The position numbers and the translations under genes were made by a program. Shown here piece by piece: positions 3,099 to 26,696 of a stretch of DNA of 33,403 bases. Where the stretch lies: positions 1 to 33,403 of the IMG/VR virus record IMGVR_UViG_3300031566_000216. The stretch is one strand, 5' to 3'. How positions within the stretch are numbered: the first letter of the stretch is position 1; the number at the start of each line of letters is the position of its first letter. A model generated the notes under the pieces. That model worked only from the letters and a program-made list of their open reading frames with translations. It was not told the DNA's origin and made no database searches. Source of the stretch: a virus.

Positions 3099-3111
3099 AT
3101 TCGTTCCGATG

Positions 3112-4068: not shown

Positions 4069-4080
4069 GTTTATACCTCG

Positions 4081-4656: not shown

Positions 4657-4704
4657 AATGTTATAAACTCCTTGTTTAGTTCTTTAGTATTTAATAATTT
4701 GACA

Positions 4705-4730: not shown

Positions 4731-4742
4731 GTACTTTTCGTT

Positions 4743-5932: not shown

Positions 5933-5939
5933 TTTCACC

Positions 5940-6173: not shown

Positions 6174-6201
6174 TTTAATCCTCAACACACGATATATTTT
6201 A

Positions 6202-6351: not shown

Positions 6352-6365
6352 TACAATCCCCTTTT

Positions 6366-6530
6366 TTATATAGTAAATTCTTTTACAAAGTCCCAACCAA
6401 ACTTTTCATTGATTGCTTTCATCATAAGTTCCATGTCTATTCGTAAATGTTTCCCTGTGACTGTGTCCACAGAATCGTAAATCCAGTTATTAGTTCCCTT
6501 CATTCCTTCTTCATCAACTTTGATTATCAT
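6366..6530 (-). CDS. Small hypothetical protein (54 aa)
   Basis: 54 residues, MIIKVDEEGMKGTNNWIYDS at the N-terminus, ending in VKEFTI. AAGGAT lies five bases upstream of the ATG. It fills the otherwise empty gap between its neighbours and keeps the 8 to 15 base spacing usual in this operon. No family recognised; it mixes a short beta region with a C-terminal helix. Confidence 0.5.
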   Translation of the reverse strand: MIIKVDEEGMKGTNNWIYDSVDTVTGKHLRIDMELMMKAINEKFGWDFVKEFTI

Positions 6531-6538
6531 TTTTATCC

Positions 6539-6805
6539 TTAGTCAAATGTTATTTCGTCATAAATTAAAGTGTCTATAGCTTCTTGCCTTATGTTGCTGT
6601 TTACCATTAATTTAATGTAACCAAGAATATCCTTATTCATAAACTCTTTTTTAGTTTGTGGATTAGGGATTGACCCACATTCTCCATCATCAATGAGTTC
6701 TTGATAACCTCTTGCCTTGCAAAATCTATCTCCTAACTCTAATTTTTTAGCACTCGTCCAGCTTAATACTGGTTCCTGTGTTTCGATAAATCCTAATATG
6801 TCCAT
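6539..6805 (-). CDS. Hypothetical protein downstream of the fibre gene
   Basis: 88 residues, MDILGFIETQEPVLSWTSAK. It follows the large fibre gene by 12 bases with AGGATAACAAA as ribosome binding site, so it is probably co-expressed with it. Position suggests a fibre chaperone or assembly factor, but the sequence shows no known tail-fibre-assembly motif. Two Cys (residues about 29 and 43) are not in a metal-binding pattern. Confidence 0.45.
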   Translation of the reverse strand: MDILGFIETQEPVLSWTSAKKLELGDRFCKARGYQELIDDGECGSIPNPQTKKEFMNKDILGYIKLMVNSNIRQEAIDTLIYDEITFD

Positions 6806-6817
6806 TTTGTTATCCTA

Positions 6818-9178: not shown

Positions 9179-9179
9179 G

Positions 9180-9443
9180 TTATGACCTCTTTAGAGCGAT
9201 ATCAAAGTCAGTGCCGCCTGCGTGCGTTACCGTTGTAAATCCGTTGAATATATCCTCGAATATCCCGCTTGCCGGGACAGGAATCGTGACCGCTGGAGAT
9301 GTGTTTAGTGTTACCGTCATTGCAGTAGTTGTATTGTTGTTAATTATTGCAATCCCGGTCATCTTACCGGAACACGTATAAGGGTAGACTGTAACTTCAT
9401 TTATAAACTCTTTGACGTATAGCTGTGGGTTGTTTATACTCAT
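9180..9443 (-). CDS. Small structural protein upstream of the fibre
   Basis: 87 residues, MSINNPQLYVKEFINEVTVY. The core 'TMTVTLNTSPAVTIPV' style region with 'PASGIFEDIFNGFTTVTHAG' and 'TDFDIALKR' is a beta-sandwich-like pattern seen in small phage proteins next to fibre genes. It probably helps attach or cap the fibre. Its ATG overlaps the stop of the homing-endonuclease remnant as TAATG, and its GAGGATAAAT ribosome binding site lies within that remnant. Confidence 0.5.
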   Translation of the reverse strand: MSINNPQLYVKEFINEVTVYPYTCSGKMTGIAIINNNTTTAMTVTLNTSPAVTIPVPASGIFEDIFNGFTTVTHAGGTDFDIALKRS

Positions 9444-9538
9444 TATTTATCCTCGATTATATTTAATCTTGCAAATTCACCATATATCTCGGTTGATGCT
9501 TTATTATATGCAATTGCAGCGTCTATTTCATTATTGTG
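9443..9538 (-). pseudogene. C-terminal stub of an AP2/HNH homing endonuclease
   Basis: A 31-codon open stretch between an in-frame TGA (9541-9539) and a TAA (9445-9443). It reads 'NNEIDAAIAYNKASTEIYGE' then 'FARLNIIEDK'. This aligns by eye with the last 30 residues of the three intact AP2/HNH endonucleases here, for example 'NIEDAAKAYNEAAIKYYGEF'. There is no start codon and no HNH part, so it is a decayed leftover. It ends in a TAATG junction with the next gene. Confidence 0.75.
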
Positions 9539-9549
9539 TCACTATATTT

Positions 9550-9663
9550 TTATTTGCTAACCTTGCCACATATTTCACATTTTAAACTTCTGTCATTCTG
9601 TTCTTTAAAGCTGCATCCTGATATTAACTTGTCATATTTAATATAATAGTATAGCTCTGTTAT
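9550..9663 (-). pseudogene. Start-less CxxC zinc-motif frame after the portal
   Basis: 37 open codons between two stops, ending 'CSFKEQNDRSLKCEICGKVS'. The C-x2-C-G-K knuckle resembles the many small Cys proteins in this phage, but there is no ATG, GTG or TTG start and no ribosome binding site in frame. It is probably a gene remnant, perhaps lost when the neighbouring endonuclease inserted or decayed. With the stub at 9443-9538 it fills the 232-base gap between portal and the next gene. Confidence 0.35.
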
Positions 9664-9676
9664 TCAGCAGATTGGC

Positions 9677-11404
9677 TTAAATAGAAACATCTGCTTTAAC
9701 CGTTTCCCCTTCTATAGCTTTTACTACTGCGCCCTGTTTAACTGCTCCGGTTTTTGTTCCTGATTCTCCGATAATTCTTTCAGCTTGTTCAGGTGTAATT
9801 CCAAACAATATTATCAACTGATTTATTCCAGAGTCTCTTGATATGTCGCCTCTTGCAACGCTCGCTACTATATCATTTATAGCCTGTACTTGCGCACCGT
9901 TAAAGGATTGACCTGTGGAATTTTCAGGAAGAGGAGTTAGGTTTTCATCTTCACCCATCCCAGATGTTTCGCTTAATCCACCCATCAATCTATTATTTTC
10001 TTTTTCCAGTTGATCTTCAAGCTCCTTCATTGCATTATCCGGATCTGACACAATATCTGGAAACATTTTTAAAAGATCACTGTTAGGGGCTAATCCCTTC
10101 AGCATCCCAGCTATCTGAGCGTTTTCAAGGACATTCTTCGGCAATATTCGATTACTGATTATATCAAGCTCATTCATACTTGACCTTACAGCGTCCCCAC
10201 CCGGGAGAATAGAAGCATAAGCGTTGATTAAGTCTATCTCTTGTCGCTTGCCCTCTGTCCATATGCGGAATGTTTGATTACATAGGAATAGAAATCCTAA
10301 TAGTCTATAACCCGCAGATACGCCCGATATTGTATTCCCCCAGGAATCACCATCGGAGAAATTAGGTATGTCTGTCAGTTCAAAGATCTGCTTAATCAGT
10401 CTGTCATAAGCACCGAAAATGAAGCTATCCTGAATATTTTTAGTCACCCATTCGAGGACATCGTCTTTCGTCTGGAACGGGACTATGCTGGTCTTTTTAA
10501 ACCTGTCAAGTGCGGTTTCTCCCTGCGCATCTCTGTGTATATCATCTGCTGACTCGGAGATTCTTAATAATGCTCCTCTAAATTCTGCTAACTCTTCAGC
10601 GATGTTCTTGCTTATAATTCTATCGGCTTCATCCATTATCCCCTGTGCATGAGCTACAAGAGGGCTTTTATCTCTGAATATGTTATATTCAATAATATGT
10701 ATTTTCTGCGGTAGTTTATTTGCAGCGTTGTATAATATGGCCGGTTTCTCTGGGTTCTCTCTTGCATCTGAGTAATCCGCTTGCGTTGCGATATAGAAGT
10801 CAATCCCTGTCTTTGTATAGACATCAGCGTAATAAATCTTTTCTTCTTTGCCGTTGGCATACTTACAGTCTGAATAATACCTGATAGCCTTTTCCATTAT
10901 AGGGTTAAGCGTATCTGTGTAAATAGGTTCTATCTGACAGGCCGGGATTGTATCACATCTTAACATCTGTTCAGCAAAATAATATATCTTATACGCGCGC
11001 CCCTGATTACCGCATTCAATGGCAGTTACAAGGTCAAGTATGTCGTTATCATTATAATCATTGATTGCTTCAAAGTATTTCATATACTCGGTTTTTTCGG
11101 TTGTTTCGATTGTTTTATTAGCTTCAGTCATAAGATTTTTAAAGCTGAATACATTTGTGAGGGAGTTGCCGGTTTCCTTGTATTGAATATCTGAAAATTG
11201 GAAGCCGCACCATGTGTTGATCAGCTTTCTTGATATCGGGAGAGGGATTCTTTTATCCTGATTAGATAATATCCCGTATTTATCAAGGTTCTTATCTGCC
11301 ATAATTACCGGGTTTTTCCCGGCGTAGTATAAAGCGTTTTTCTCGTAGTCTTTATTGCGGATGTCTAATGATTTTTTATATTGAGATATTTCTTTGCTGT
11401 CCAT
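9677..11404 (-). CDS. Portal protein (SPP1 gp6-like)
   Basis: 575 residues. The N-terminal part fits the SPP1 gp6 portal family: 'NKDYEKNALYYAGKNPVIMA', 'KRIPLPISRKLINTWCGFQF', and around 240-260 'PQKIHIIEYNIFRDKSPLVA'. The stem/wing part contains 'SGVSAGYRLLGFLFLCNQTF', equivalent to the usual 'S-G-x-A-L-x-x-x' helix. Portals form the dodecameric ring at one capsid vertex through which DNA is packed and ejected. The C-terminal 100 residues are Gln/Gly/acidic-rich. It follows the large terminase by 123 bases. CAGGAGTTTAC precedes the ATG. Confidence 0.85.
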   Translation of the reverse strand: MDSKEISQYKKSLDIRNKDYEKNALYYAGKNPVIMADKNLDKYGILSNQDKRIPLPISRKLINTWCGFQFSDIQYKETGNSLTNVFSFKNLMTEANKTIETTEKTEYMKYFEAINDYNDNDILDLVTAIECGNQGRAYKIYYFAEQMLRCDTIPACQIEPIYTDTLNPIMEKAIRYYSDCKYANGKEEKIYYADVYTKTGIDFYIATQADYSDARENPEKPAILYNAANKLPQKIHIIEYNIFRDKSPLVAHAQGIMDEADRIISKNIAEELAEFRGALLRISESADDIHRDAQGETALDRFKKTSIVPFQTKDDVLEWVTKNIQDSFIFGAYDRLIKQIFELTDIPNFSDGDSWGNTISGVSAGYRLLGFLFLCNQTFRIWTEGKRQEIDLINAYASILPGGDAVRSSMNELDIISNRILPKNVLENAQIAGMLKGLAPNSDLLKMFPDIVSDPDNAMKELEDQLEKENNRLMGGLSETSGMGEDENLTPLPENSTGQSFNGAQVQAINDIVASVARGDISRDSGINQLIILFGITPEQAERIIGESGTKTGAVKQGAVVKAIEGETVKADVSI

Positions 11405-11424
11405 GTAAACTCCTGAAGGGTTTA

Positions 11425-11489
11425 GCGGCGTTGTCTATTTGCAACCGCCGCACCTTATCACCCTGAGGTTATATATTGCCTTCGGAGGC
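11425..11489 (-). other. Two hairpins in the terminase-portal gap
   Basis: The 123-base gap between the large terminase and portal holds two stems: GCGGCGTTG with CAAcCGCCGC (11425-11451) and GCCT-TCGG-AGGC (11478-11489, a TTCG-type tetraloop region). Neither has a U-run on the minus strand. They may mark an RNA processing or stabilising site before the abundant portal and fibre messages. Confidence 0.35.
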
Positions 11490-11527
11490 GTTAATAAACG
11501 TATTTCAGGATTATAGTGGATTGTCAA

Positions 11528-12742
11528 CTACTTTTTTGGTTCTCTTGATATATTGGATCTATACCATACCGATGCTGGCCGTTCAAGAGCATATATAACA
11601 GCATCGACACAGTGGTCCTCTTTATCCCGGAGCTTTTCAAGTATCACTTCATTTTTATCTGTCTCGTAGGACCACCCGGTAAACTCTTTACAGGCATTCG
11701 GGCAATTATCAGCATGGATGTGTATTTTGTTGAATTGTTTTAGATACATACTCATAGCAAATTTAAAGGCATTTTCCTTAACTGGCTGTCCTATTGACTT
11801 TCTTGCGCTCGTTACTTGGAAGCGTCCTGATGCGTTTAACATCTTGCTTAATTCAGGTCTTGCGCTGTCTGCGATTATATGCTGATTTAAAGCCCATTCA
11901 AGGTCCGTTAATTCTTTCTTCATCTGCTCAGGGTCAAGTCCGGTTTTGTAATATTCCCGGCATATATAAAGCTCGTTGTCTGCAATATAGCATTGCATTA
12001 GGACCGTTGGGTCAATATGTCCATAATCAAGCCCGTAGTGCATTTGGCGGGCCATGTCTATATCGAATGAGTGAATGACAATATTTCTTAAGACATTTGA
12101 TTCTGTTAAGGCTCTTATTTCTCCATCATATATCCACTTGAAGAGGTCTGGGTCCGCTTTTCTCATTCTATCAATTTCTTTTCTGCTTGTATCTGATAGA
12201 AAAGGGTTTTCATCATAGTTTATCTTTATTACAAGCGCGTCCGGATGGACATTTGTAACGAACATTTTATATACTTCATCATTAAGGCTTTGTGGGTTAA
12301 ATGTAACAAAGAATTGACTGCCTTCCATCCTTAAAGTAGGAATAAGGACCCGCCATGCTTCAGGGCTGATTGTTGCCGATTCTTCGGTCCATGCGTACTT
12401 AACACCCTCAATAGATTTGATATTATCTAAATTCTGCCATAATCCCTGAAATATGAATTTAGATCCGTTTAGATTGCATCTTATTTCATTTTCAACAATA
12501 GTAAAATATTTATTGAGTTCATAGTCATTTATTATTTTAACCAGTAGGGAATAAGAAGAGGCTGCAATTGATTTCTGTATATGCCTTGTGCATAGTATTA
12601 AGCATTTTTCAGTCATGGCCCTGACAATTAAAAGTCTTGCGATAGAATGGGATTTAGAACTTGCCCGTCCCCCATATATAACAATGAATCTTTTATCTGA
12701 TGTAAAAATCGGGAGGAGTTTATCGGGTATGTCAATGTTCAC
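11528..12742 (-). CDS. terL: Terminase large subunit (Terminase_3 / PBSX type)
   Basis: 404 residues, the usual size. Walker A is GGRASSKS at residues 24-31; Walker B with the catalytic acid is 'KYAWTEESA' near 115-123 (Glu120/121); coupling motif 'FVTFNP' near 145-150. The C-terminal RNase H-like nuclease has its metal-binding Asp residues at D239 (GLDYG), D292 (IIADSA) and D380 (DHCVDAVIYAL). The enzyme cuts concatemeric DNA and drives it into the prohead by ATP hydrolysis. Its start overlaps the small subunit stop by four bases, a classical terS-terL coupling. Confidence 0.93.
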   Translation of the reverse strand: MNIDIPDKLLPIFTSDKRFIVIYGGRASSKSHSIARLLIVRAMTEKCLILCTRHIQKSIAASSYSLLVKIINDYELNKYFTIVENEIRCNLNGSKFIFQGLWQNLDNIKSIEGVKYAWTEESATISPEAWRVLIPTLRMEGSQFFVTFNPQSLNDEVYKMFVTNVHPDALVIKINYDENPFLSDTSRKEIDRMRKADPDLFKWIYDGEIRALTESNVLRNIVIHSFDIDMARQMHYGLDYGHIDPTVLMQCYIADNELYICREYYKTGLDPEQMKKELTDLEWALNQHIIADSARPELSKMLNASGRFQVTSARKSIGQPVKENAFKFAMSMYLKQFNKIHIHADNCPNACKEFTGWSYETDKNEVILEKLRDKEDHCVDAVIYALERPASVWYRSNISREPKK

Positions 12743-13167
12743 TTAACGCCATTTATAACAATATTGATAGGTGTGTTGTCTTTTATGTCTATCTCTGTTT
12801 TATCGGTAAAAAGTACAGTATATTTACCCAACAATTCAAGAGCTTTTAATTTATCTGTTTTGCGTGTGCTTATTGGATTGCCGTCTTTATCGGTTAAAAT
12901 CTCGCCTTCATCAAATGCAATGTTATTCAATTCACCTAATACTTTTGTTTTAAGCTCTGTTTTTCTATGCTGCATACCGATTTCAAGCTGACTATCTATA
13001 TATTCACGTATGTAAGGTTTTTTTAGGTTCTCTGATGCTATAACTCCTGCGGTGTCTTCGGAATATCCGGCTCTTATCGCTGCCTGTGTGCCGTTCAAAT
13101 CAATTAAATATTCAGCACAAAAGGCCTCTTGCTTTGCAGTCATCTTGATTTCTTTCTCTTCTTTCAT
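12739..13167 (-). CDS. terS: Terminase small subunit (Terminase_2)
   Basis: 142 residues. The N-terminal DNA-binding part reads 'MTAKQEAFCAEYLIDLNGTQ' then 'AAIRAGYSEDTAGVIASENL' and 'KKPYIREYI', the standard Terminase_2 signature with a helix-turn-helix. The C-terminal half contains an oligomerisation helix and 'TDKLKALELLGKYTVLFTDK'. The protein recognises the packaging site and regulates the large subunit, which follows with an ATGA overlap. An alternative start (MTAKQE) eight residues inside cannot be excluded because the ribosome binding site at 13167 is weak. Confidence 0.9.
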   Translation of the reverse strand: MKEEKEIKMTAKQEAFCAEYLIDLNGTQAAIRAGYSEDTAGVIASENLKKPYIREYIDSQLEIGMQHRKTELKTKVLGELNNIAFDEGEILTDKDGNPISTRKTDKLKALELLGKYTVLFTDKTEIDIKDNTPINIVINGVK

Positions 13168-13173
13168 GTCTCT

Positions 13174-13202
13174 ATCTATTCCATTATTTGCTTAATTGTC
13201 AA
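13174..13202 (-). promoter_or_regulatory. Weak candidate promoter before terS
   Basis: TTGACA (13202-13197) lies just upstream of terS, with ATAGAT 17 bases downstream as a poor -10. Such a promoter would drive the packaging and head genes, but the -10 match is weak. Confidence 0.25.
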
Positions 13203-13214
13203 TAACTTTTTATT

Positions 13215-13391
13215 TCACCACGCTTGATCTGTTGCATCTACTGTACAATAGCTTTCTATTCCGCAGTAATCGCATTTATATTGTTTTTTTGGTGCCCCAC
13301 AATATTTGCATGACTCATATTCCTTTATAATGGATATTGTAGCCATGGAGAGGATTTCTAAGTCGTTGTTAGTTAATTGTGGATTTGCCAT
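13215..13391 (-). CDS. Small zinc-ribbon protein (58 aa)
   Basis: 58 residues, start at 13391 (MANPQLTNNDLEILSMATIS) supported by GAGGGATAAA upstream; the longer frame to 13421 lacks such a site. The C-terminal half carries C-x2-C-G-A-P...C-x2-C-G ('CKYCGAPKKQYKCDYCGIES'), a typical zinc ribbon knuckle pair. It precedes the terminase genes. It may bind DNA, RNA or a protein partner; no specific function is known. Confidence 0.6.
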   Translation of the reverse strand: MANPQLTNNDLEILSMATISIIKEYESCKYCGAPKKQYKCDYCGIESYCTVDATDQAW

Positions 13392-13399
13392 TTTATCCC

Positions 13400-13561
13400 T
13401 CATTTTCCGTATATAATCCATAAATTGCTTCTTTGGTAATCATCTATTTTATCGTCTATTTTAATTATTGTTATACCACTTAATATTCCAAGTAATAAAG
13501 ATATTAGTACAATAATTAGTAAACATGATAATGATACGTTTCTGGCATAGTTATCTTTCAT
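13400..13561 (-). CDS. Small single-pass membrane protein (53 aa)
   Basis: 53 residues; ATG at 13561 with GGAG six bases upstream. Residues about 12-33 ('SCLLIIVLISLLLGILSGIT') form a strong membrane segment, followed by a charged tail 'KIDDKIDDYQRSN'. Together with the 33-residue membrane peptide that overlaps its start by 11 bases it may form a membrane pair. A holin-like or host-membrane role is possible but unproven. Confidence 0.55.
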   Translation of the reverse strand: MKDNYARNVSLSCLLIIVLISLLLGILSGITIIKIDDKIDDYQRSNLWIIYGK

Positions 13562-13652
13562 TGTCATCTCCATTATTTTTAGCATAATAATACATTTGGA
13601 CTATGTGGCATATAATTAGTGTTATGAATGATACAAATAATATTACTTTCAT
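13551..13652 (-). CDS. Very small membrane peptide (33 aa)
   Basis: 33 residues, MKVILFVSFITLIICHIVQM then 'YYYAKNNGDDNER'. The first 20 residues are a membrane helix. A strong AAGGAGAAAAAA ribosome binding site precedes the ATG, and the stop overlaps the next gene's start region by 11 bases. These two facts support translation despite the short length. Confidence 0.55.
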   Translation of the reverse strand: MKVILFVSFITLIICHIVQMYYYAKNNGDDNER

Positions 13653-13684
13653 TTTTTTCTCCTTACAATACCCTGTTTAAGTAA

Positions 13685-13855
13685 TTAATCTAACGATCTC
13701 CATTTTGGAGTATCAATTTTTAAAGGACATCCTGTTGGTTTTTCTTCTGTCGCCGGATTTACAAATAAGCAGGGTTCATCTTCTGAACCGCAAACCGTAC
13801 ATTGCCATGTATGTATTTCATCTTCTATTGGTTTGTCTGTTCGCTTGTCACTCAT
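13685..13855 (-). CDS. Small Cys-rich protein (56 aa)
   Basis: 56 residues, MSDKRTDKPIEDEIHTWQCT. Four Cys (C19-x2-C22, C29 and C43) may hold one zinc ion. The leader CCAAAGGAGGGCGAGAG just before the ATG is shared almost exactly with the gene at 14251-14355. No family recognised. Confidence 0.55.
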   Translation of the reverse strand: MSDKRTDKPIEDEIHTWQCTVCGSEDEPCLFVNPATEEKPTGCPLKIDTPKWRSLD

Positions 13856-13880
13856 CTCTCGCCCTCCTTTGGTTTAATCA

Positions 13881-14135
13881 TTATAGCAATCTTCTATCAC
13901 ATTGATTTTCTTCATCCCAAAATTGACCTGCTTGTTCTTTTGGTGTACATTGATTATTACATGTTACGAATTTTGATGCGTCAGAACATCTATGATTTAT
14001 TTCATATTGCACCTTTCTTAATGCCAAAATATAACCCTGTTGGAACAATTCCTCTTGTGCCCCATGCTCATAAATTCTTTTTTGTTCTGTGTCGCAAAAA
14101 TACCAAACACTTTGTAATTTTTCATATGAGCTCAT
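13881..14135 (-). CDS. Hypothetical protein (84 aa)
   Basis: 84 residues, MSSYEKLQSVWYFCDTEQKR. It is helical in the N-terminal half and has four later Cys/His candidates ('HRCSDASKFVTCNNQC') that might bind metal. The leader GGGAGAGTGAGAG resembles those of the neighbouring mini-genes. Function unknown. Confidence 0.5.
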   Translation of the reverse strand: MSSYEKLQSVWYFCDTEQKRIYEHGAQEELFQQGYILALRKVQYEINHRCSDASKFVTCNNQCTPKEQAGQFWDEENQCDRRLL

Positions 14136-14159
14136 CTCTCACTCTCCCTGTTTAATTAT

Positions 14160-14249
14160 TTAATCCATTACCATGAAAGCCAACATCAATAGAATAAATC
14201 CACCTAACGGGTAAATTACTCTTACAAATATGTCTAATGTTATTTCCAT
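14160..14249 (-). CDS. Very small membrane peptide (29 aa)
   Basis: 29 residues, MEITLDIFVRVIYPLGGFIL then 'LMLAFMVMD'. Residues 8-28 are one hydrophobic helix. AAGGAG lies 11 bases upstream and the stop of the preceding mini-gene ends two bases before the ATG. Length alone makes this uncertain, but spacing and the ribosome binding site are good. Confidence 0.45.
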   Translation of the reverse strand: MEITLDIFVRVIYPLGGFILLMLAFMVMD

Positions 14250-14250
14250 A

Positions 14251-14355
14251 TTACTTAATTCTCCTTGTATATTCATAGTACCCAAATTTGCAAATTCCGC
14301 AGCTATCTCTTTTATTTCTATGTGCTGAACAAATAGATATCCATTCTTTCTTCAT
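14251..14355 (-). CDS. Mini zinc-binding protein (34 aa)
   Basis: 34 residues, MKKEWISICSAHRNKRDSCG then 'ICKFGYYEYTRRIK'. The set C9, H12, C19, C22 is a plausible zinc site. The leader CCAAAGGAGGACGAGAG is a strong ribosome binding site and is repeated before two other genes nearby. Confidence 0.5.
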   Translation of the reverse strand: MKKEWISICSAHRNKRDSCGICKFGYYEYTRRIK

Positions 14356-14373
14356 CTCTCGTCCTCCTTTGGT

Positions 14374-14586
14374 TTAATTGTTTTTATAATTTCCATGCCA
14401 TTCAACTAATTCATTTTCATTGATTTCGTTTACTACTTCCATGATACCCCACTGCTCCTCTTTACTTCCTCTTTGCGGAAAAGCCGTACGATGTATTAAA
14501 TCTTGAATCTTTAAAAGGTAATCATATTTTTCTTTCGGAGTTTCACCTTTAAGCTGTTGCATTATCAATTTATCATATGGTTGCAT
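14374..14586 (-). CDS. Hypothetical protein (70 aa)
   Basis: 70 residues; I place the start at 14586 (MQPYDKLIMQQLKGETPKEK), which has AGGAGG eight bases upstream, instead of the ATG at 14676. The start overlaps the 55-residue Cys gene by 14 bases. It looks all-helical, with a C-terminal 'NEINENELVEWHGNYKNN'. No family recognised. Confidence 0.5.
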   Translation of the reverse strand: MQPYDKLIMQQLKGETPKEKYDYLLKIQDLIHRTAFPQRGSKEEQWGIMEVVNEINENELVEWHGNYKNN

Positions 14587-14740
14587 TATTTTTGACCTCC
14601 TGCTCTTTGTCGTATTTATGGATCTCACATGGGTGATCAAAAAAACAACATTCAGTTTGACCTCTTGGATTTTCAATATACTTTAAAAAACATTTTTCAT
14701 TAAAATGGTTTATTACTGATCCGTGTATAATCTTTTCCAT
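14573..14740 (-). CDS. Small Cys/His-rich protein (55 aa)
   Basis: 55 residues, MEKIIHGSVINHFNEKCFLK. Cys at 17, 31, 32, 38 and His at 36 and 41 ('TECCFFDHPCEIHKYD') suggest a compact metal site. AAGGAG lies upstream. It overlaps the next gene, suggesting coupled translation. Function unknown. Confidence 0.5.
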   Translation of the reverse strand: MEKIIHGSVINHFNEKCFLKYIENPRGQTECCFFDHPCEIHKYDKEQEVKNNATI

Positions 14741-14745
14741 CTTAC

Positions 14746-15261
14746 TTAATTCTCCTTTTGTAATTTGTAATTTGTTTTTGAATACTCTCCATGATATTTT
14801 TTAGATGCTACATCATACGCTTCTGATGCTTCTTTTTCTGTCATAAAATAACCAAGATGAATATATTTTCTGTTTTTCTTTATATAGGCCTTATATTTTT
14901 TAACATTTTTATCAAAAGAAACCCCTTTAAACTTTGATAATTTACCATTTGAATATTTTTTACAATTACAAGAATTTTCTCCAATTGTGCATACTCTTAA
15001 ATTTTCTTTGCGGTTGTCTAAAGTATTTCCGTTAATGTGATCTATAACCATGTTTTTTGGATAATTCATTATTAACCTATGTAATAATATTACAGTTCTC
15101 TTATTTATATCTAATCTTTTATTTGTCTTTATATAAAACGAATCCGCATTCTTATTATAGTTAACACCCCATGTATATTCCTTAATCTTATCAAAGTCCT
15201 CCCCGTCAATAAAAAATGATATATTTCCATATTTATTACTTTTAACAGGTACAACTATCAT
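14746..15261 (-). CDS. HNH homing endonuclease with AP2 DNA-binding domain
   Basis: 171 residues; start at 15261 (MIVVPVKSNKYGNISFFIDG) with GGAGGAGATGAG upstream. Order of domains: N-terminal NUMOD-like 45 residues ('DFDKIKEYTWGVNYN'), HNH_3 core near 62-95 ('HRLIMNYPKNMVIDHINGNT', catalytic His in 'IDHIN', then 'LDNRKENLRVC'), and C-terminal AP2 domain near 110-165 ('FKGVSFDKNVKKYKAYI'). These enzymes cut DNA at a recognition site so that their own gene is copied there. It sits between ordinary small genes without disrupting them. One of three intact relatives in the window. Confidence 0.85.
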   Translation of the reverse strand: MIVVPVKSNKYGNISFFIDGEDFDKIKEYTWGVNYNKNADSFYIKTNKRLDINKRTVILLHRLIMNYPKNMVIDHINGNTLDNRKENLRVCTIGENSCNCKKYSNGKLSKFKGVSFDKNVKKYKAYIKKNRKYIHLGYFMTEKEASEAYDVASKKYHGEYSKTNYKLQKEN

Positions 15262-15286
15262 CTCATCTCCTCCTCTATTATTTCTA

Positions 15287-15604
15287 TCAGGCAATAATTT
15301 CTCTTAAATCGTTATATATCTGTATAGGGTTAGTCTTTATTTGCCCTGTAGTGTATCTTAGAACCTTATATCCTAATATCTGAGCTGAGTTGTATTTCTC
15401 ACAGTCTTTAGAATAACCCTCTCCCCTTGTATGCCGTCCAGACTGATAAACGGCTCCCTCAATTTCTAAAAGTATCATCTTTGAAGGTATCGCATAATCA
15501 GCGCGCCATTTTCTTATAGGATGGAATCTGAATTCCTTTTCATACGGTACATTTAATTCCTTTAGAAATGACTCAACTATTATTTCAGGGCTATTTATTA
15601 TCAT
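15287..15604 (-). CDS. Endonuclease-like protein (VSR/DUF559-type nuclease fold)
   Basis: 105 residues from the ATG at 15604. The segment 'EKEFRFHPIRKWRADYAIPS' then 'KMILLEIEGAVYQSGRHTRG' has the restriction-endonuclease-like core: an Asp in 'WRADYAIP', then E-I-E ('LLEIEG'), then 'YSKDCEKYNSAQILGYKVLR' with 'RYTTGQI'. This is a known small phage nuclease type found among recombination and Holliday-junction genes. The longer frame starting at 15661 overlaps a separate Cys-rich gene read in another frame, so the shorter start is preferred. Confidence 0.65.
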   Translation of the reverse strand: MIINSPEIIVESFLKELNVPYEKEFRFHPIRKWRADYAIPSKMILLEIEGAVYQSGRHTRGEGYSKDCEKYNSAQILGYKVLRYTTGQIKTNPIQIYNDLREIIA

Positions 15605-15746
15605 CTTTACAATCCAGCTTTCTTCCTTTCGGGTTATATCCGCCGTAATGGTCGCAGTCATGACAATTTATCAATAGCGTTTCCTCTCCGGTCTTTTTGC
15701 AGAATACTTTATAAACTTCTGATTTCTTGCTTACTGTTCTTATCAT
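15591..15746 (-). CDS. Small zinc-binding protein (51 aa) overlapping nuclease start
   Basis: 51 residues, MIRTVSKKSEVYKVFCKKTG, later 'NCHDCDHYGGYNPKGRKLDC'. Cys at about 16, 28, 31 and 46 plus nearby His fit a zinc knuckle. GGAGGATTAAG precedes the ATG and the start forms an ATGA overlap with the stop of the YopX-like gene. Its 3' end overlaps the nuclease start by 14 bases. This leaves no room for the longer nuclease start. Confidence 0.6.
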   Translation of the reverse strand: MIRTVSKKSEVYKVFCKKTGEETLLINCHDCDHYGGYNPKGRKLDCKDDNK

Positions 15747-16117
15747 CTTAATCCTCCATGGCATAATTGTTCTTTTGTCTCTGTTTGTTTTTCGTATATG
15801 TTTCCGATGACTTCTAAATTATGAATATGGTGAATCCCAATATCATATACTTGTATTTTGTTAGGGAGAGTAGCTGATCTAAATGCTCCCATATAAAATA
15901 TTACTTCGTAGACATCGTCACTCTCTTCAGTTTTAACTATATCTCCTTCCCAAATCTTTACCCCATCTTTATCGCTTAGTCCTGTATATTGCATAATAAT
16001 ATAATTAGGATTGTTTGGTCTATTATGTAATTGACCTTTCCAGTTTATGAGAAAGCTATCGTAAATCATTAAATCTCTGGTTAAGTCATAACATCTGAAT
16101 TCAAGCTCTCTGTTCAT
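15743..16117 (-). CDS. YopX family protein
   Basis: 124 residues. The signature 'MQYTGLSDKDGVKIWEGDIV' is the hallmark of the YopX family, with the N-terminal 'NRELEFRCYD' and a C-terminal 'LEVIGNIYE'. The proteins are small beta-rich and very common in phages of Firmicutes and others; function is not known. CGGAGGATTAAG precedes the ATG. It overlaps the downstream Cys gene by four bases. Confidence 0.85.
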   Translation of the reverse strand: MNRELEFRCYDLTRDLMIYDSFLINWKGQLHNRPNNPNYIIMQYTGLSDKDGVKIWEGDIVKTEESDDVYEVIFYMGAFRSATLPNKIQVYDIGIHHIHNLEVIGNIYEKQTETKEQLCHGGLR

Positions 16118-16130
16118 CTTAATCCTCCGG

Positions 16131-16349
16131 TTATTCTGATAATTTTAATACGACAATACTTCTTGCAACATTAGAACTGTAATGGATATACCCTTTTTTG
16201 GCAAGTAGTTTCACATGACTTAACGCTGCCCCCTGGTTGACTCCTAGAAGATCTCCCAGTTCTCTTAAAGTTGGTGAATAGCCTTTTTCAGATTTATATT
16301 TTATTATCAATTCCAAACAATGCTTCTGCTTGTCGGTCATTTCTTTCAT
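16131..16349 (-). CDS. LexA-like winged-helix DNA-binding protein (72 aa)
   Basis: 72 residues, equal to the LexA N-terminal DNA-binding domain only: 'MTDKQKHCLELIIKYKSEKG', 'YSPTLRELGDLLGV', 'ALSHVKLLAKKGYI', then 'ARSIVVL'. The C-terminal Ser/Lys protease domain of LexA is missing, so it could bind DNA but could not cleave itself. It may compete with or redirect host SOS repression or regulate phage genes. It overlaps the preceding Cys-rich gene by four bases (ATGA). A promoter lies one gene upstream. Confidence 0.75.
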   Translation of the reverse strand: MKEMTDKQKHCLELIIKYKSEKGYSPTLRELGDLLGVNQGAALSHVKLLAKKGYIHYSSNVARSIVVLKLSE

Positions 16350-16978
16350 TTGTCTTTCCTTTTATTTAGTTCGGTTTTCAATTGTTGGATACAATCATTT
16401 TGTTTTGACATTACCCATGACCATTCATGCTGACGTCTATTATTAAATAGTTCTTCCGCTTCTTCAATCAATATTTCATGATCAGATTTGAGGATGTAAC
16501 CTTTTTCTCTCATATATTGTTTTACTGTTAGCACATTAGAAAACTGCATATCGACACAAAAGTCGTGCGCCTCTTCTTCTGTAAATTGTGGTTTCATTTT
16601 CACGCTCCATTTATCGGGGTTATTTATCTGTGAGTTTCCTAATATTATGTTGTCAATATCGCTCTGTTTCATTTTTGTCTCCTTTGGTGCAAAATATTCT
16701 TTTCTAATACAAGCGACTCGGCATCCATCTTCATCATCATTACTACAATTTCCGCATGATATACTTTCATCTTTTACTATTGGTTCTCCAATATATTCTT
16801 TTTCATAATCTGAAAACATTATACAGTCGTGATAACATATATCGGAAAATCTATCATTATCATACTTGCAACCATCACAACTTAATTTCCCCAAAAAACT
16901 TGAACATATATCCGATGTTCTAACAACATTACAAGTCAATCTGCACGTTCCATAGTTTATACAGTCTCCACATTTCAT
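16346..16978 (-). CDS. Cys-rich multi-knuckle protein
   Basis: 210 residues from the ATG at 16978 (MKCGDCINYGTCRLTCNVVR), with GGAGGACG just upstream. The N-terminal 85 residues carry about 16 Cys in repeated C-x2-C and C-x3-6-C patterns, including 'CDGCKYDNDRFSDICYHDC' and 'CGNCSNDDEDGC'. They look like three or four small metal sites. The C-terminal 110 residues are helical without Cys ('EEEAHDFCVDMQFSN', 'LIEEAEELFNNRRQ'). Function unknown; it could be a metal or redox protein. It heads a small unit behind its own promoter candidate. Confidence 0.55.
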   Translation of the reverse strand: MKCGDCINYGTCRLTCNVVRTSDICSSFLGKLSCDGCKYDNDRFSDICYHDCIMFSDYEKEYIGEPIVKDESISCGNCSNDDEDGCRVACIRKEYFAPKETKMKQSDIDNIILGNSQINNPDKWSVKMKPQFTEEEAHDFCVDMQFSNVLTVKQYMREKGYILKSDHEILIEEAEELFNNRRQHEWSWVMSKQNDCIQQLKTELNKRKDK

Positions 16979-16996
16979 AACGTCCTCCATATATTG

Positions 16997-17025
16997 ACAT
17001 TAACTATATACTAATCATATGTCAA
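16997..17025 (-). promoter_or_regulatory. Promoter candidate before the Cys-rich/LexA-like unit
   Basis: TTGACA (17025-17020), a 17-base spacer and TAATGT (17002-16997). TTGACAT and its inverse ATGTCAA bracket the promoter, 18 bases apart, which could be an operator. The -35 falls inside the 3' end of the upstream HNH gene. Confidence 0.5.
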
Positions 17026-17250
17026 CACTTTTTGACCTGATTTAGATTTTATTTCAATATTAAAAAATTCACAAAATTCTTTCTCTGTCCAATGCTCTAC
17101 CGGCTTTGTTAAATGGCAGTTTTCACAAATATCCATTAAATTATCCGGATGATGAATATGATTAGGATATAACTTTTTATATCGCTTATATTGCGGGAAT
17201 CTGTGGTGAAGCTGTGTCGCTTGCTTGCCGCATATATAACAGGAACTCAT
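17011..17250 (-). CDS. Small HNH-like protein
   Basis: 79 residues, MSSCYICGKQATQLHHRFPQ. Cys at 4 and 7 and a later pair in 'DICENCHLTKPVEHW' hold one zinc; the 'LHHRFPQ' His pair and 'HHPDNLMDICENCH' give the beta-beta-alpha-metal HNH pattern. Such short HNH proteins occur in phages as nicking enzymes or recombination accessories. GAGGTGAAATAAA precedes the ATG. It follows the antirepressor pair by one base. Confidence 0.65.
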   Translation of the reverse strand: MSSCYICGKQATQLHHRFPQYKRYKKLYPNHIHHPDNLMDICENCHLTKPVEHWTEKEFCEFFNIEIKSKSGQKVLTYD

Positions 17251-17251
17251 T

Positions 17252-17692
17252 TTATTTCACCTCTACTAATTTAAATCTTTTAGCAATATAAGATATACCG
17301 GATGGCTTAAATAGTGTAACCGGCTTATTATCTATAACGCCATTTATACTAACCGACTTATAAATCACTTTAAAATATTTTTTATAATCATTATATGGCA
17401 CGTTATTACTCATAAGTATTTTTTCTTTTCGTAGCATATTGAAAAATTTGTTCCTGCCGATATTAAAAGACTTTGCAACTATACCAACTTCTTGACAGTC
17501 TTTACCGGATAGAAATAAATCATATTCTAATGCTTTAGGTTTCATCTCTTTATTTTCTTCGGTCAATATTTTGTTCTTTTCAATAAGTTCAGCGTTATCA
17601 TCTTCAAGTATTTGTATGGCTTGCCTGATTATTAGATTCTTTTCAAGGTTTGTTTTAACTGAAACCGATTGGTTTATGTTTGATATTTCCAT
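17252..17692 (-). CDS. Antirepressor C-terminal part (KilAC domain)
   Basis: 146 residues. Residues 15-50 form a coiled coil, and from about 51 the KilAC/ANT domain is clear: 'KALEYDLFLSGKDCQEVGIV' and 'AKSFNIGRNKFFNMLRKEKI', continuing to 'YNDYKKYFKVI'. In related phages this domain is joined to an N-terminal DNA-binding or Bro/HTH domain in one protein. Here it starts right after the stop of the HTH gene and in the same frame. Both carry NINQSVSV at the joint from a 28-bp repeat. An AAGGAG site within the upstream frame would allow independent initiation. Confidence 0.8.
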   Translation of the reverse strand: MEISNINQSVSVKTNLEKNLIIRQAIQILEDDNAELIEKNKILTEENKEMKPKALEYDLFLSGKDCQEVGIVAKSFNIGRNKFFNMLRKEKILMSNNVPYNDYKKYFKVIYKSVSINGVIDNKPVTLFKPSGISYIAKRFKLVEVK

Positions 17693-17745
17693 TTATACTA
17701 ACTCCTTTATATGTTTATTAACTGAAACCGATTGGTTTATGTTTG
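17655..17745 (-). repeat. 28-bp direct repeat bridging the two antirepressor genes
   Basis: Identical 28-bp copies at 17655-17682 and 17718-17745, offset by 63 bp, an exact 21 codons. Each contains AAACC-GATT-GGTTT, a small palindrome that could also serve as an operator. Recombination between copies would remove 63 bp, delete the intervening TAA and fuse both genes in frame. Confidence 0.85.
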
Positions 17746-17977
17746 CATAACCCATAATTTTGTCTACTTCATTTTCATGGTTATATAAGTGTTGGTTTTT
17801 TTGCATATCTAATTTAATAACAGTAGTTTGATATTCGTTTAGATTTGTATATTTTCCATGTTCCATCAAATCTGGAAAGAATATTTTAACATACTTGCGG
17901 ACTGTTTTTGGCGTAACATTTAATATTTTAGCAACTTCTTTTACTGTCATTGTTTGTTCTAAAGTTAATTCGTTCAT
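17693..17977 (-). CDS. Antirepressor N-terminal part (helix-turn-helix)
   Basis: 94 residues. The N-terminus 'MTVKEVAKILNVTPKTVRKY' is a helix-turn-helix of the kind seen at the front of phage antirepressors, followed by 'TNLNEYQTTVIKLDMQKNQH', also typical. It ends with 'YANINQSVSVNKHIKELV' and TAA, immediately before the KilAC gene in the same frame. It may have been the front of a single protein of about 220 residues. AAAGGAGAGAAACAA precedes the ATG. Its start overlaps the upstream gene by four bases. Confidence 0.75.
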   Translation of the reverse strand: MNELTLEQTMTVKEVAKILNVTPKTVRKYVKIFFPDLMEHGKYTNLNEYQTTVIKLDMQKNQHLYNHENEVDKIMGYANINQSVSVNKHIKELV

Positions 17978-18234
17978 TTGTTTCTCTCCTTTATCATTGC
18001 ATCGGCGACAAGATAAGACGATTCGGCAATTCTTATTAAATCCTTATTTGTTAAATTGAATCCTAAAATGAAATTAGTCATTGCTTTGGCTGCAAAGTAA
18101 TCTCTTAATGTCATACCCGTATTAAGCTCATTATCGGTTCTGATTTCCGATCTGCCATGTTCATTTTGCCTCATTTCTGATTCTGTACATATTACCGATG
18201 GAAAAGCGCAAATGTCATTTGTTTTACTGTTCAT
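17974..18234 (-). CDS. Small phage protein with GMTLRDYFAAKAM motif
   Basis: 86 residues, start at 18234 (MNSKTNDICAFPSVICTESE) with TGGAG seven bases upstream; an alternative ATG at 18246 lies right after the U-run of the RNA element. Residues 40-52 GMTLRDYFAAKAM and the end 'IAESSYLVADAMIKERNK' form a pattern common in short phage proteins of unknown function. It is the first gene after the promoter and structured RNA at 18248-18397, so its level would depend on read-through of that terminator. Confidence 0.6.
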   Translation of the reverse strand: MNSKTNDICAFPSVICTESEMRQNEHGRSEIRTDNELNTGMTLRDYFAAKAMTNFILGFNLTNKDLIRIAESSYLVADAMIKERNK

Positions 18235-18247: not shown

Positions 18248-18362
18248 AAAAAAGCCCCCATTATTATGTAGACGGTTTCCCGCTTCGACACACATAATAA
18301 CAGAGGCTTTCAGATTTTAAAAGTATAAGTGAAAGTGTCGATGTTTCAGTTATACTCTTTAT
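18248..18362 (-). ncRNA. Structured phage RNA, copy 1 (kissing-loop terminator RNA)
   Basis: From the promoter at 18397-18369 the transcript would begin near 18362. The 5' hairpin (18358-18321) has a stem with one C/C mismatch and a 9-nt loop containing UCGACAC. After the linker UUUAAAAUC comes a 19-bp terminator stem (18310-18292 with 18269-18250), a nested CGG-GAAA-CCG hairpin and a U-run (18253-18248). GUGUCGA (18291-18285) lies just inside the terminator stem and is complementary to the 5' loop. The same four helices occur in copy 2 with other sequences. It may be an attenuator, an antiterminator or a free sRNA. Confidence 0.8.
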
Positions 18363-18368
18363 TTTATT

Positions 18369-18397
18369 ACAATACATATTCACGTTTTAAAAGTCAA
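18369..18397 (-). promoter_or_regulatory. Promoter of structured RNA copy 1
   Basis: TTGACT (18397-18392), 17-base spacer, TATTGT (18374-18369). 'ATATGTAT' around the -10 edge is shared with the promoter of copy 2 at 23809-23836. It lies three bases after the U-run of the preceding terminator. Confidence 0.7.
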
Positions 18398-21907: not shown

Positions 21908-22126
21908 TTAATAACCCACATCTTCAATTATAAATAATTTATTACATTCTGGGCACTCAAACTCTTCATTCCAATTTTCTTTTCCAAATCCATCGTCAGA
22001 AAGTAAACAGCTATAAATATAACCGTCATCCAATAAGCTCTGCTGTTCCATCAAATCTATTGTTGATTCACAATGTGGGCATTCAGCATATATTGATATT
22101 GTTATTTGTGCGTTAGACTTTTTCAT
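21908..22126 (-). CDS. Small zinc-ribbon protein (72 aa)
   Basis: 72 residues, MKKSNAQITISIYAECPHCE with a second pair 'EEFECPECNKLF'. CPHC and CPEC about 40 residues apart form a zinc ribbon. GGGAGTTTATAAG precedes the ATG, which overlaps the preceding gene stop by four bases. It lies between two replication genes, so a role as a DNA- or replisome-binding accessory is possible. Confidence 0.6.
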   Translation of the reverse strand: MKKSNAQITISIYAECPHCESTIDLMEQQSLLDDGYIYSCLLSDDGFGKENWNEEFECPECNKLFIIEDVGY

Positions 22127-22905
22127 CTTATAAACTCCCTTAATCTGTCTTCTATTCCCTGATGATCTACTTCTTTTTTATTATCCGTCTTCTTTTTAGA
22201 GTGTGATTCAAGAGTATTAAACTTTTCTCTAAATTTATCAGTCGATAAAATATTGACTTTCCAAAATTTGTCAGTTAAAGCATAATCCATAACATCTTTA
22301 ATCAAGTTATAATCAATCCCGTCAATTCTATTTAACTTTTCAATTGCATCGTACCATTTTGTTATATCAGGTGGTTTGTTTTTGTATCGTGTTGGTTTGT
22401 CCATTTTGTTATAAAAGTAATTTGTTAATTCTATCACGTCGAGATGAGTATTCTCTTGAATTAAATTAACTTTGCTTAAATTATCTTCACTTAACATAAC
22501 TTCTCTTACGCTGTCCGTGGACTGTCCATGCACTCTTCTGCTGTTATCGTTTACATCTGATCTTGGCTTTGGTGCAATATATGGAATTTCTGGACAATTA
22601 TTTTTAAGCAGGTTAATATATATGCTGTCAACTTTTCTATCTGCTCTTATGACATTATGTTCATGCCAATCTGTAATAACAACCACCTGATCTTCATTTA
22701 ATTGCTTTACAAATTCTTTAGCTAATAATACTTTTAAGTTATCCGGAGCTGTGCCGAGTAATCTGATTATCGGATACGCTTCGACAATTCCGTCATCATC
22801 TGCCCTGAGTATCATATGAAAATATAATAATTGACTTTCCATAGGCATTTGTAGAAACTTTGCTGAGTTTGCTATTCTATTACTAAACATTCTTCTTTGT
22901 CCCAT
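22123..22905 (-). CDS. Phage replication initiator (DnaD/replisome-organizer-like)
   Basis: 260 residues. The N-terminal winged-helix part starts MGQRRMFSNRIANSAKFLQM, 'PMESQLLYFHMILRADDDGI', 'VEAYPIIRLLG', as in phage replisome-organizer proteins that bind the origin. The C-terminal part 'VMDYALTDKFWKVNILSTDK' then 'FREKFNTLES' is the usual DnaD-like tail contacting the helicase loader. The central linker is polar. Origin iterons, if present, would often lie inside such a gene; I saw none obvious. It overlaps the downstream zinc-ribbon gene by four bases. Confidence 0.7.
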   Translation of the reverse strand: MGQRRMFSNRIANSAKFLQMPMESQLLYFHMILRADDDGIVEAYPIIRLLGTAPDNLKVLLAKEFVKQLNEDQVVVITDWHEHNVIRADRKVDSIYINLLKNNCPEIPYIAPKPRSDVNDNSRRVHGQSTDSVREVMLSEDNLSKVNLIQENTHLDVIELTNYFYNKMDKPTRYKNKPPDITKWYDAIEKLNRIDGIDYNLIKDVMDYALTDKFWKVNILSTDKFREKFNTLESHSKKKTDNKKEVDHQGIEDRLREFIR

Positions 22906-23335: not shown

Positions 23336-23509
23336 TTATTTATCATCTCCCTTTACATAATCAAATATAAATTCAATAGCCTGTTTAATAGATATAGGCA
23401 ATCTGTTGTAATCGTTAGTCGATAATATTTGGCCTATAAATAATAAAATATTATCGACTCTCTCTTTTGCTTCCCACAATGTTAAATCTTCTCTATAATC
23501 TTTTCTCAT
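23336..23509 (-). CDS. Small helical protein (57 aa)
   Basis: 57 residues, MRKDYREDLTLWEAKERVDN then 'ILLFIGQILSTNDYNRLPIS'. It seems all-helical and acidic. It sits between two genes with TAA-ATG type junctions at both ends, which supports translation. GAGGTTAAATAA precedes the ATG. No family recognised. Confidence 0.5.
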   Translation of the reverse strand: MRKDYREDLTLWEAKERVDNILLFIGQILSTNDYNRLPISIKQAIEFIFDYVKGDDK

Positions 23510-23656
23510 TTATTTAACCTCTATTCTGTAATAAACTAAATGTATTTTTTCCTTTTCTAAAAATTGAATACTTATTATTTCAAGATTTGTACTTCCTAAT
23601 GACCATTCATTTAATTCTGTGATATTTCTAAAATATGTCATTTCTATTTTATTCAT
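23510..23656 (-). CDS. Small hypothetical protein (48 aa), first after RNA copy 2
   Basis: 48 residues, MNKIEMTYFRNITELNEWSL with a beta-rich C-terminal half. AAGGATGGTATAAG precedes the ATG. It is the first gene after the U-run of the structured RNA at 23685-23802, so its expression would depend on read-through. Confidence 0.5.
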   Translation of the reverse strand: MNKIEMTYFRNITELNEWSLGSTNLEIISIQFLEKEKIHLVYYRIEVK

Positions 23657-23684: not shown

Positions 23685-23802
23685 AAAAAAACCGCTCCCA
23701 ACATGTAGCCGGTGTTATCCGGTTTGCGCCCACATGTTAAGAAACGGTTTTATGATTTTAAAGACAAGTCAGAGGGCGCAGTTCTGATTTAGTCTTTAAC
23801 TG
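23685..23802 (-). ncRNA. Structured phage RNA, copy 2 (kissing-loop terminator RNA)
   Basis: The transcript would begin near 23802. The 5' hairpin (23797-23760: AAAGAC, UCAGA / UCUGA, GUCUUU) has a 9-nt loop with UGCGCCC. The linker AAAAUC is shared with copy 1. The terminator stem (23751-23732 with 23706-23688, one bulge) encloses a CCGG-AUAACA-CCGG hairpin and is followed by seven U. GGGCGCA (23731-23725) just inside the stem pairs with the 5' loop. Size, loop length, spacing and helix order equal copy 1 while pairing sequences differ, which is strong evidence of selection on structure. Confidence 0.8.
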
Positions 23803-23808
23803 TAGTAC

Positions 23809-23836
23809 ATCATACATATAGCTTTTAATGTGTCAA
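23809..23836 (-). promoter_or_regulatory. Promoter of structured RNA copy 2
   Basis: TTGACA (23836-23831), 16-base spacer, TATGAT (23814-23809). The -35 overlaps the TGA stop of the upstream gene. 'ATATGTAT' is shared with the promoter at 18369-18397. Confidence 0.75.
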
Positions 23837-25008: not shown

Positions 25009-25665
25009 TTAGTCCTCCTTTTTAATTAAATTTGCAATCATATCTATATATGTTTTATATTCTTTGATTTGCTCATCAGTATAACCGTTATTTGTACCGA
25101 TAGCCACGTAATTAGACAGCCATTTTTCAACACTATAATTTTCACATCCGATTTTAATAACACCATCCATATATAATAATGAATGAGTACTCCCTGTAAT
25201 ATTTATTATTGGTAATTTAATAATTGTTTCTGACAGGTCGGCTCCGGACAGGTTGGCTTCGGACAGGTCGGCTCTGGACAGGTTGGCTCCGAACAGGTCG
25301 GCTCCGGACAGGTTGGCTCCGTACAGGTCGGCTCCGGACAGGTTGGCTCCGGACAGGTCGGCTCTGGACAGGTTGGCTCCGGACAGGTCGGCTCCGGACA
25401 GGTTGGCTCCGAACAGGTCGGCTCCGGACAGGTTGGCTCTGGACAGGTTGGCTCCGTACAGGTCGGCTCCGGACAGGTTGGCTCTGGACAGGTCGGCTCT
25501 GGACAGGTCGGCTCCGAACAGGTTGGCTCTGGACAGGTCGGCTCTGGACAGGTCGGCTCTGGACAGGTCGGCTCCGGGGTTTTTTACTATTGCATCTTTT
25601 ATATTAGCATATTCTCCAACTATAATAATGTTACCGTTAAATCTGTTTTTAATTTCTATTTTCAT
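25009..25665 (-). CDS. Pentapeptide-repeat protein
   Basis: 218 residues. Residues about 30-148 are 23 or so consecutive A(D/N)LxX pentads (mainly ADLSR, ANLSG, ADLYG, ANLFG), which fold as a right-handed quadrilateral beta-helix. Some relatives (Qnr, MfpA) mimic DNA and protect gyrase; others are structural. The N-terminal 28 residues ('IEIKNRFNGNIIIVGEYANI') are a small beta element, and the C-terminal 68 residues hold 'MDGVIKIGCENYSVEKWLSN', seen in phage pentapeptide proteins. GGAGGACGTT precedes the ATG. It sits in the early operon, so a host-directed or DNA-mimic role is possible. Confidence 0.85.
   Translation of the reverse strand: MKIEIKNRFNGNIIIVGEYANIKDAIVKNPGADLSRADLSRADLSRANLFGADLSRADLSRANLSGADLYGANLSRANLSGADLFGANLSGADLSGANLSRADLSGANLSGADLYGANLSGADLFGANLSRADLSEANLSGADLSETIIKLPIINITGSTHSLLYMDGVIKIGCENYSVEKWLSNYVAIGTNNGYTDEQIKEYKTYIDMIANLIKKED
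25230..25577 (-). repeat. 15-bp tandem repeats encoding the pentapeptides
   Basis: About 23 tandem units close to GGCTCCGGACAGGTT or GGCTCCGGACAGGTC (plus-strand sense) with only a few changing positions. The unit is in phase with the codons. The block is far more GC-rich than its surroundings and nearly uniform in codon use, which suggests recent slippage or unequal-exchange expansion. Confidence 0.9.
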
Positions 25666-26189: not shown

Positions 26190-26696
26190 TTATACCTCTA
26201 TTTTATTTAATTTAGCAAACTCACCATGATATATTTTAGCAGCTTTATTATATGCTTCTGCCGCATCCTCTTGATTTTTATAAAGTCCTAAATGTTTGGA
26301 CACTTTATTAAATTTTATTGATGCGAGATATTTATTTGTAACTTTATGAAAATAAACGCCTTTATATTTTGATGATTTACTTTTAATACTTTTTTTCCTA
26401 TTTCTTGAATTTTCCATTTGTGTACATATTCTTAAATTATCCCTACAATTATTTAAAGTATTTCCGTCAATATGATCGACCTCTAATCCTTCTGGGCAAT
26501 TTAAAATAAATCTATGTAATTTTATTGATTTTATTTTTCTATCTATCGGGTTATATTTACCTCTTGTTACATACAAATTATTATCCCTATTTCTCACAAA
26601 ACTCCATTTATAATCTTTAATCAAATCAAAATCATTTCCGTCAATAAAGAATAAATGTTCTCCAAATGTTTTGCTTTTTATGGGTATAGCTATCAT
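26190..26696 (-). CDS. HNH homing endonuclease with AP2 domain
   Basis: 168 residues from the ATG at 26696 (MIAIPIKSKTFGEHLFFIDG) with AAGGAGCAACAA upstream. 'HRFILNCPEGLEVDHIDGNT' and 'LNNCRDNLRICTQMENSRNR' form the HNH core; 'KYKGVYFHKVTNKYLASIKF' to 'AAEAYNKAAKIYHGEFAKLN' is the AP2 domain. It is closer to the enzyme at 14746-15261 at the N-terminus (FFIDGxDFD) and shares the AP2 tail with the other two. It lies one base from the next gene and may have split an older junction between the small Cys gene and the SSB-like gene. Confidence 0.85.
   Translation of the reverse strand: MIAIPIKSKTFGEHLFFIDGNDFDLIKDYKWSFVRNRDNNLYVTRGKYNPIDRKIKSIKLHRFILNCPEGLEVDHIDGNTLNNCRDNLRICTQMENSRNRKKSIKSKSSKYKGVYFHKVTNKYLASIKFNKVSKHLGLYKNQEDAAEAYNKAAKIYHGEFAKLNKIEV

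Follow-up and report, generated by a model that had tools for sequence, protein, structure and literature searches.

Two structured phage RNAs that keep a loop-terminator pairing while their sequences change

The C4 RNA of phage P1 silences an antirepressor operon, and immunity RNAs of the C4/CI kind carry two target sites, seqA and seqC, and act in trans in the lysogen. The rep genes of plasmids pT181 and pIP501 are governed by antisense-controlled attenuators, while purine and guanidine-II riboswitches are known as kissing-loop riboswitches. The CI RNA of satellite phage P4 silences the P4 replication genes via premature termination (PMC4825925), and the put RNA of phage HK022 contacts RNA polymerase directly and thereby suppresses termination (PMC9378689). 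Here we use folding, covariance models and searches by architecture to study two RNA elements in the record of an uncultured tailed phage. The whole stretch of DNA analysed (the window) comprises 33,403 bases at 36% G+C, with almost all genes on the minus strand. Both elements lie on that strand, copy 2 at 23685-23836 and copy 1 at 18248-18397, and searches of the 33-kb window by loop complement and by a covariance model (R1, below) give no third copy. We found no description of this architecture in open-access papers.

Anatomy and covariation of the two elements

Copy 2 opens with the promoter TTGACA-16-TATGAT (23809-23836; this and all features of the two elements and of the genes behind them are on the minus strand), which matches the consensus at 11 of 12 positions, and its transcription probably starts near 23802. 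There follow a 5' hairpin (23758-23799, from folding and model R1) with the 9-nt loop ACUGCGCCC (23782-23774), the linker AAAAUC, and a predicted intrinsic terminator (23688-23751, from folding) that encloses a nested CCGG hairpin (23722-23709) and ends in a U-run reaching down to 23685. Copy 1 is built the same way, with a 5' hairpin (18319-18360, seen by folding and found by R1) and its 9-nt loop CAUCGACAC (18343-18335), the same AAAAUC linker, and a predicted intrinsic terminator with a nested CGG/CCG hairpin (18250-18311, from folding) whose U-run extends to 18248. An earlier, sequence-only reading of this DNA had described these parts, and the folds place all of them where it had put them. 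It had also claimed a shared promoter, which is good for copy 2 and weak for copy 1, where TTGACT-17-TATTGT (18369-18397) matches the consensus at only 9 of 12 positions.

The feature that ties the two hairpins together is a 7-nt bulge inside the long terminator stem, which in both copies is the exact complement of loop positions 3-9. In copy 2 the loop segment (X) is UGCGCCC (23774-23780) and the bulge segment (X') is GGGCGCA (23725-23731); in copy 1 they are UCGACAC (18335-18341) and GUGUCGA (18285-18291), so that both pairs are perfectly complementary, as had been proposed. When the loops are shuffled by letter, the 91 nt that follow contain a 7-nt complement with p = 0.023 and 0.012 for the two copies. 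The folds themselves have MFE z-scores of -5.9 (copy 2) and -8.0 (copy 1), and none of the 200 shuffles of each is as good.

How far have the letters changed while the pairs were kept? MAFFT misaligned the two copies, and we therefore used a single-sequence covariance model, R1, which takes copy 2 as its sole input and treats the loop-bulge helix as unpaired. With filters off, R1 recovers copy 1 in the window at 45.5 bits (E = 1.7e-9), and the runner-up place scores 13.1 bits. In the alignment fitted by the model, 98.7% of cells are paired across both copies. Changes on both sides are found in 11 of its 38 stem pairs, a level matched in 1 of 500 shuffles for an alignment that holds two sequences only and is partly fitted to structure. 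The 7-bp loop-bulge helix was not used by the model, and direct reading shows 4 of its 7 pairs to be double-changed between the copies. The helices are thus kept while the bases change, as the sequence-only reading had claimed, and the window pair is confirmed as a structured RNA in which architecture rather than sequence is conserved, with true covariation.

What the earlier description had missed is the gene that begins shortly after each U-run, with a Shine-Dalgarno (SD) motif and a start codon less than 30 nt behind it. Behind copy 2, the SD AAGGA (23671-23667) serves a 48-aa ORF (23510-23656), which is followed by a 57-aa ORF, an HNH gene and, at the end of the operon, a DnaD-like helicase loader (22123-22905). 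Behind copy 1, the SD GGAG (18244-18241) is followed by a small gene of phrog_2201, function unknown (17974-18234), an HTH gene (17693-17977) and a KilAC antirepressor (17252-17692). The operon before copy 1 closes at a terminator-like site (18426-18408), and the antirepressor operon thus shows no promoter other than the one upstream of copy 1.

Some other features of the window deserve mention. An inverted repeat, TCGATAATATT..AATATTATCGA (23392-23460, plus strand), lies within the 57-aa ORF after copy 2, and the early region holds a pentapeptide-repeat protein of 218 aa (25009-25665). The stretches at 26205-26696 and about 14770-15261 are 67% identical, and since the first falls in an HNH gene they are probably copies of a mobile HNH gene. 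Positions 1531-17593 match a contig of a different metagenome record (L133) at 99.94% identity, and model R2, which is built from both copies, finds no RNA element in the whole of that record.

The same plan in other phages

Searches by sequence stay within the window. At the gathering threshold no Rfam covariance model matches in the window, and a permissive Rfam search returns nothing relevant, either in the window or at four other loci, in line with the earlier statement that no known family fits. DNA patterns drawn from both copies give chance matches only in IMG/VR and a genome collection, and blastn of the two copies against phages gives nothing of note. The two-copy model (R2), which the sequence-only reading had put forward as the way to find relatives in phage DNA, does recover the window pair; everything else it returns is noise, both in 45 records behind terminase relatives and in twelve further records or genomes plus 44 DnaD loci. 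A 13.6-bit match to R2 in Dulem virus 30 was dismissed for its many broken pairs. The element is absent from those named phages with related DnaD genes that we examined, and no named or cultured phage among those examined bears it.

We therefore turn to architecture. Relatives of the DnaD gene from IMG/VR were scanned by architecture alone, namely for a 5' hairpin followed by a terminator whose interior contains a 6-9-nt complement to the hairpin loop, and the same plan appears, in unrelated sequences, at such loci of other uncultured phages. At a score of at least 40, a first scanner gives 18 matches in phage loci, 3 in shuffled DNA and none in 0.88 Mb of bacterial chromosome loci. A refined scan of 3.2 Mb of phage loci gives 14 matches at a score of at least 46 against none in two dinucleotide-shuffled sets, and 22 real against 1 shuffled at a score of at least 44, counts that include redundant contigs and come from a scanner tuned after the first examples had been seen. 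Low-scoring matches are equally common in shuffled DNA. Scanner matches in L310 (tandem terminators), in L234 and in coding regions were rejected. Among 299 Bacillota genomes, a related DnaD occurs in 5, and none of these shows a leader scoring at least 36.

The score takes in structure only, leaving promoter and SD aside, and these nonetheless go with it: a promoter before and an SD with start codon after are found for 8 of the 26 high-scoring matches versus 1 of the 94 lower-scoring ones (Fisher p = 1.4e-5). In most members the RNA is preceded by a sigma-70-like promoter and followed by a gene's ribosome-binding site, and the promoters directly before the RNAs match the consensus at 9-12 of 12 positions. 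Among the 11 promoter-bearing members, the distance from the -10 box to the start of X is 14-28 nt and that from X to the U-run 72-112 nt; X is complementary to its own terminator in 11 of 11 cases, by selection, and the terminator of another member in 1 of 110. The partner X' sits in a 5' bulge in the window copies, L266, L390 and L385, in the apical loop in the L406 group, the second copy of L385, L330 and L350, and in a 3' bulge in L329 and L375. A strong 5' hairpin is not evident in L330, L325 and L350, yet in these too the interior of the terminator is paired with a 5' segment.

The genes downstream are in part a matter of sampling, which is biased since loci were picked via DnaD or terminase relatives, so that DnaD is over-represented by design: a DnaD-like loader follows in L385, L390, L375, L330, L350 and L379/L399 and, less certainly, in L325 and L397. 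Within these DnaD contigs the element lies within 200 nt before the DnaD start. Elsewhere the gene behind encodes an O-like/Lin1244_N replication protein (L276), a DNA primase (L266), an endonuclease VII-like protein (second copy of L385), a GIY-YIG/T5orf172 protein (L281), or members of phrog_4652 (L329/L331) and phrog_15333 (L406 group), both of unknown function. L329 and the near-identical L331 carry three loop-terminator leaders per phage with differing loops (in L329 at about 9299 on the plus strand and about 16614 and 18253 on the minus strand, numbered on their own strands). Strongly structured leaders that have no U-run or terminator stand just before the DnaD start in L321, L333, L352 and L378, and these are possibly a translational version. 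No sequence is conserved across the members of different phages that we compared, which leaves nothing for a common regulator to read, and models R1 and R2 recover none of the other members; these could therefore either share one origin with the window RNAs or be a product of convergence.

One set of leaders has enough orthologues to follow the contact itself. We fetched 43 orthologues (L406-L448) of the 174-aa gene behind the L181/L231 leader and aligned 13 distinct leaders, with L420 left out. In these 13 leaders the X-X' cells are 100% paired; sliding the partner by 1-3 columns, as a control, leaves only 17-54% paired. Double changes are seen in 3 of the 7 pairs, and the covariation score is reached by none of 500 shuffles, with few change events and few sequences behind it. 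As X/X', L421 has CTGCTAC/GTAGCAG, L436 has CTGGAAC/GTTCCAG and the other aligned leaders have CTGGAAG/CTTCCAG; L420 has TGTGCG/CGCACA. Covariation in other phages, on which the sequence-only reading had staked its case beforehand, is thus found, in analogous leaders rather than in direct homologues. L436 (2893-2986) and L420 (1469-1566) are diverged orthologues in which the loop complementarity is kept and the U-run lost, with the hairpin about 10 nt ahead of the start codon. Because they keep the contact without a U-run, termination cannot be the whole story, and they suggest that the contact may also act in translation or folding. The only named-phage relative of the 174-aa protein is a hypothetical protein of TM7 phage DolZOral124_53_65, encoded beside an exonuclease, and the 174-aa protein is perhaps a recombination annealing protein.

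How the elements may act

The sequence-only reading had taken the element as a free-standing RNA of about 115 nt. Both copies and most other members come after a promoter and before the next gene's ribosome-binding site, and for this reason we read them as leaders instead. In the interpretation that we favour, and in which we place about even confidence, the window RNAs and the other members would be cis-acting leaders, attenuators locked by a loop, that gate the gene behind; the matches give the order of such a leader, with promoter, then intrinsic terminator, then ribosome-binding site. Transcription from the promoter would produce the 5' hairpin first, and its loop would form 6-9 bp with the hairpin that comes next, at a bulge or in the apical loop; in most members this second hairpin would be an intrinsic terminator just ahead of the ribosome-binding site. 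The contact could form before the 3' arm of the terminator is made and would be compatible with the finished stem, and so the whole would be one compact kissing-loop or pseudoknot fold rather than an either/or switch. No antiterminator or switch structure is visible in the leaders, because X' lies outside the terminator stem. Most transcripts would stop as a stable RNA of about 100-120 nt, the terminated leader product. With the promoter on the near side of the terminator and the ribosome-binding site directly beyond it, expression of the gene or operon behind would depend on read-through or on some factor that opens the structure (replication genes for copy 2, the antirepressor operon for copy 1). 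From the sequence we infer termination in vivo and the need for read-through; the loop contact may strengthen, weaken or time termination, or it may protect the RNA.

The same parts could be put together differently. The RNA might be a free-standing sRNA of about 115 nt, stable, with its 5' end docked on its own terminator and acting in trans by binding protein or RNA or as a decoy, the gene behind being merely a low-expressed neighbour. Strong promoter matches directly before the RNA, a compact and very stable fold and a terminator of its own would all suit such a molecule, but an SD and start codon nearly always stand right behind the U-run, often those of replication genes, and with the sequence unconserved a common trans target is not visible; we consider this rather unlikely. 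Improbable, in our view, is an RNA immunity like that of P4 or P1, in which a terminated prophage RNA would silence incoming copies of the same operon via the nascent leader while loops diversify between immunity groups. It draws on the same kinds of operon, P4 CI RNA silencing replication genes by premature termination (PMC4825925), on the antirepressor operon behind copy 1 and on the privacy of the loops (self 11/11, cross 1/110). However, each leader has a single complementary site with no second target from -100 to +420, pairing in cis would always compete, Rfam C4 gives no match, and the idea presupposes lysogeny, which for these phages is an assumption.

A translational gate, in which kissing hairpins would occupy the ribosome-binding region, opening would admit ribosomes and termination would be secondary, takes its case from members with a hairpin directly ahead of SD and AUG and from the loop pairing retained without a U-run in L436 and L420; it is quite improbable, as the SD lies outside the hairpin and behind a good U-run in the window, L385, L390 and others. 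That these are ordinary terminators with chance loop complementarity would agree with the low-scoring matches and their frequency in shuffled DNA, but it is highly improbable, being already contradicted by the compensatory changes in the window pair and orthologues and opposed by the 14 versus 0 matches at high score.

A pairing that is kept while its letters change suggests that phage genes are gated in a way not described before. More tentatively, the loop-locked leaders could possibly belong to a widespread phage RNA class that is free of conserved sequence and recognisable by architecture only, with a private loop-terminator lock on each early operon that would control replication genes and might also mark out RNA-based immunity groups. 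Such a class would escape homology searches that rely on similar sequence or on a covariance model; to find it, one would look between promoter and ribosome-binding site for a loop that can pair with the interior of the next terminator. If real, this would be a common phage leader device for gating replication genes that annotation has overlooked, its geometry being the only thing conserved. Phages would then have one more level of regulation, between control by repressors and antitermination, and the leaders would offer ready-made orthogonal attenuators to test.

Comparison with known systems

From general knowledge, type III antitoxin RNAs share the order of promoter, pseudoknotted RNA, terminator and gene; the elements here differ in being single units free of tandem repeats, and the genes behind them are replication, recombination/nuclease or unknown genes, not toxins. 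Like the kissing-loop riboswitches, they are leaders with two hairpins whose loops pair, but the members have no conserved core or ligand pocket and the sequence differs from phage to phage. HK022 put, too, is a structured RNA that opens phage early transcripts and affects termination (PMC9378689), whereas these elements end in a terminator and share no sequence, and put works the opposite way.

The attenuators of pT181 and pIP501 come closer, with a replication-gene leader, an early loop complementary to the attenuator region and a terminator before the gene. Here, by contrast, X' is part of a bulge or loop, so that there is no competition with the terminator stem, and opposite copy 1 or copy 2 there is no antisense promoter site of at least 10/12. 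The nearest functional parallel of the window leaders is the group of P4 CI, P1 C4 and IsrK-type RNAs (Rfam C4). It differs in that the sole complementary site here is inside an intrinsic terminator, no processing is seen and Rfam gives no match; a second complement, as seqA and seqC would require, is absent in the listed members from -100 to +420. Every listed member does have one complementary site in its own leader, X', and in both cases a phage RNA lies in the leader of replication or antirepressor operons, is complementary to that same leader and is linked to premature termination (PMC4825925).
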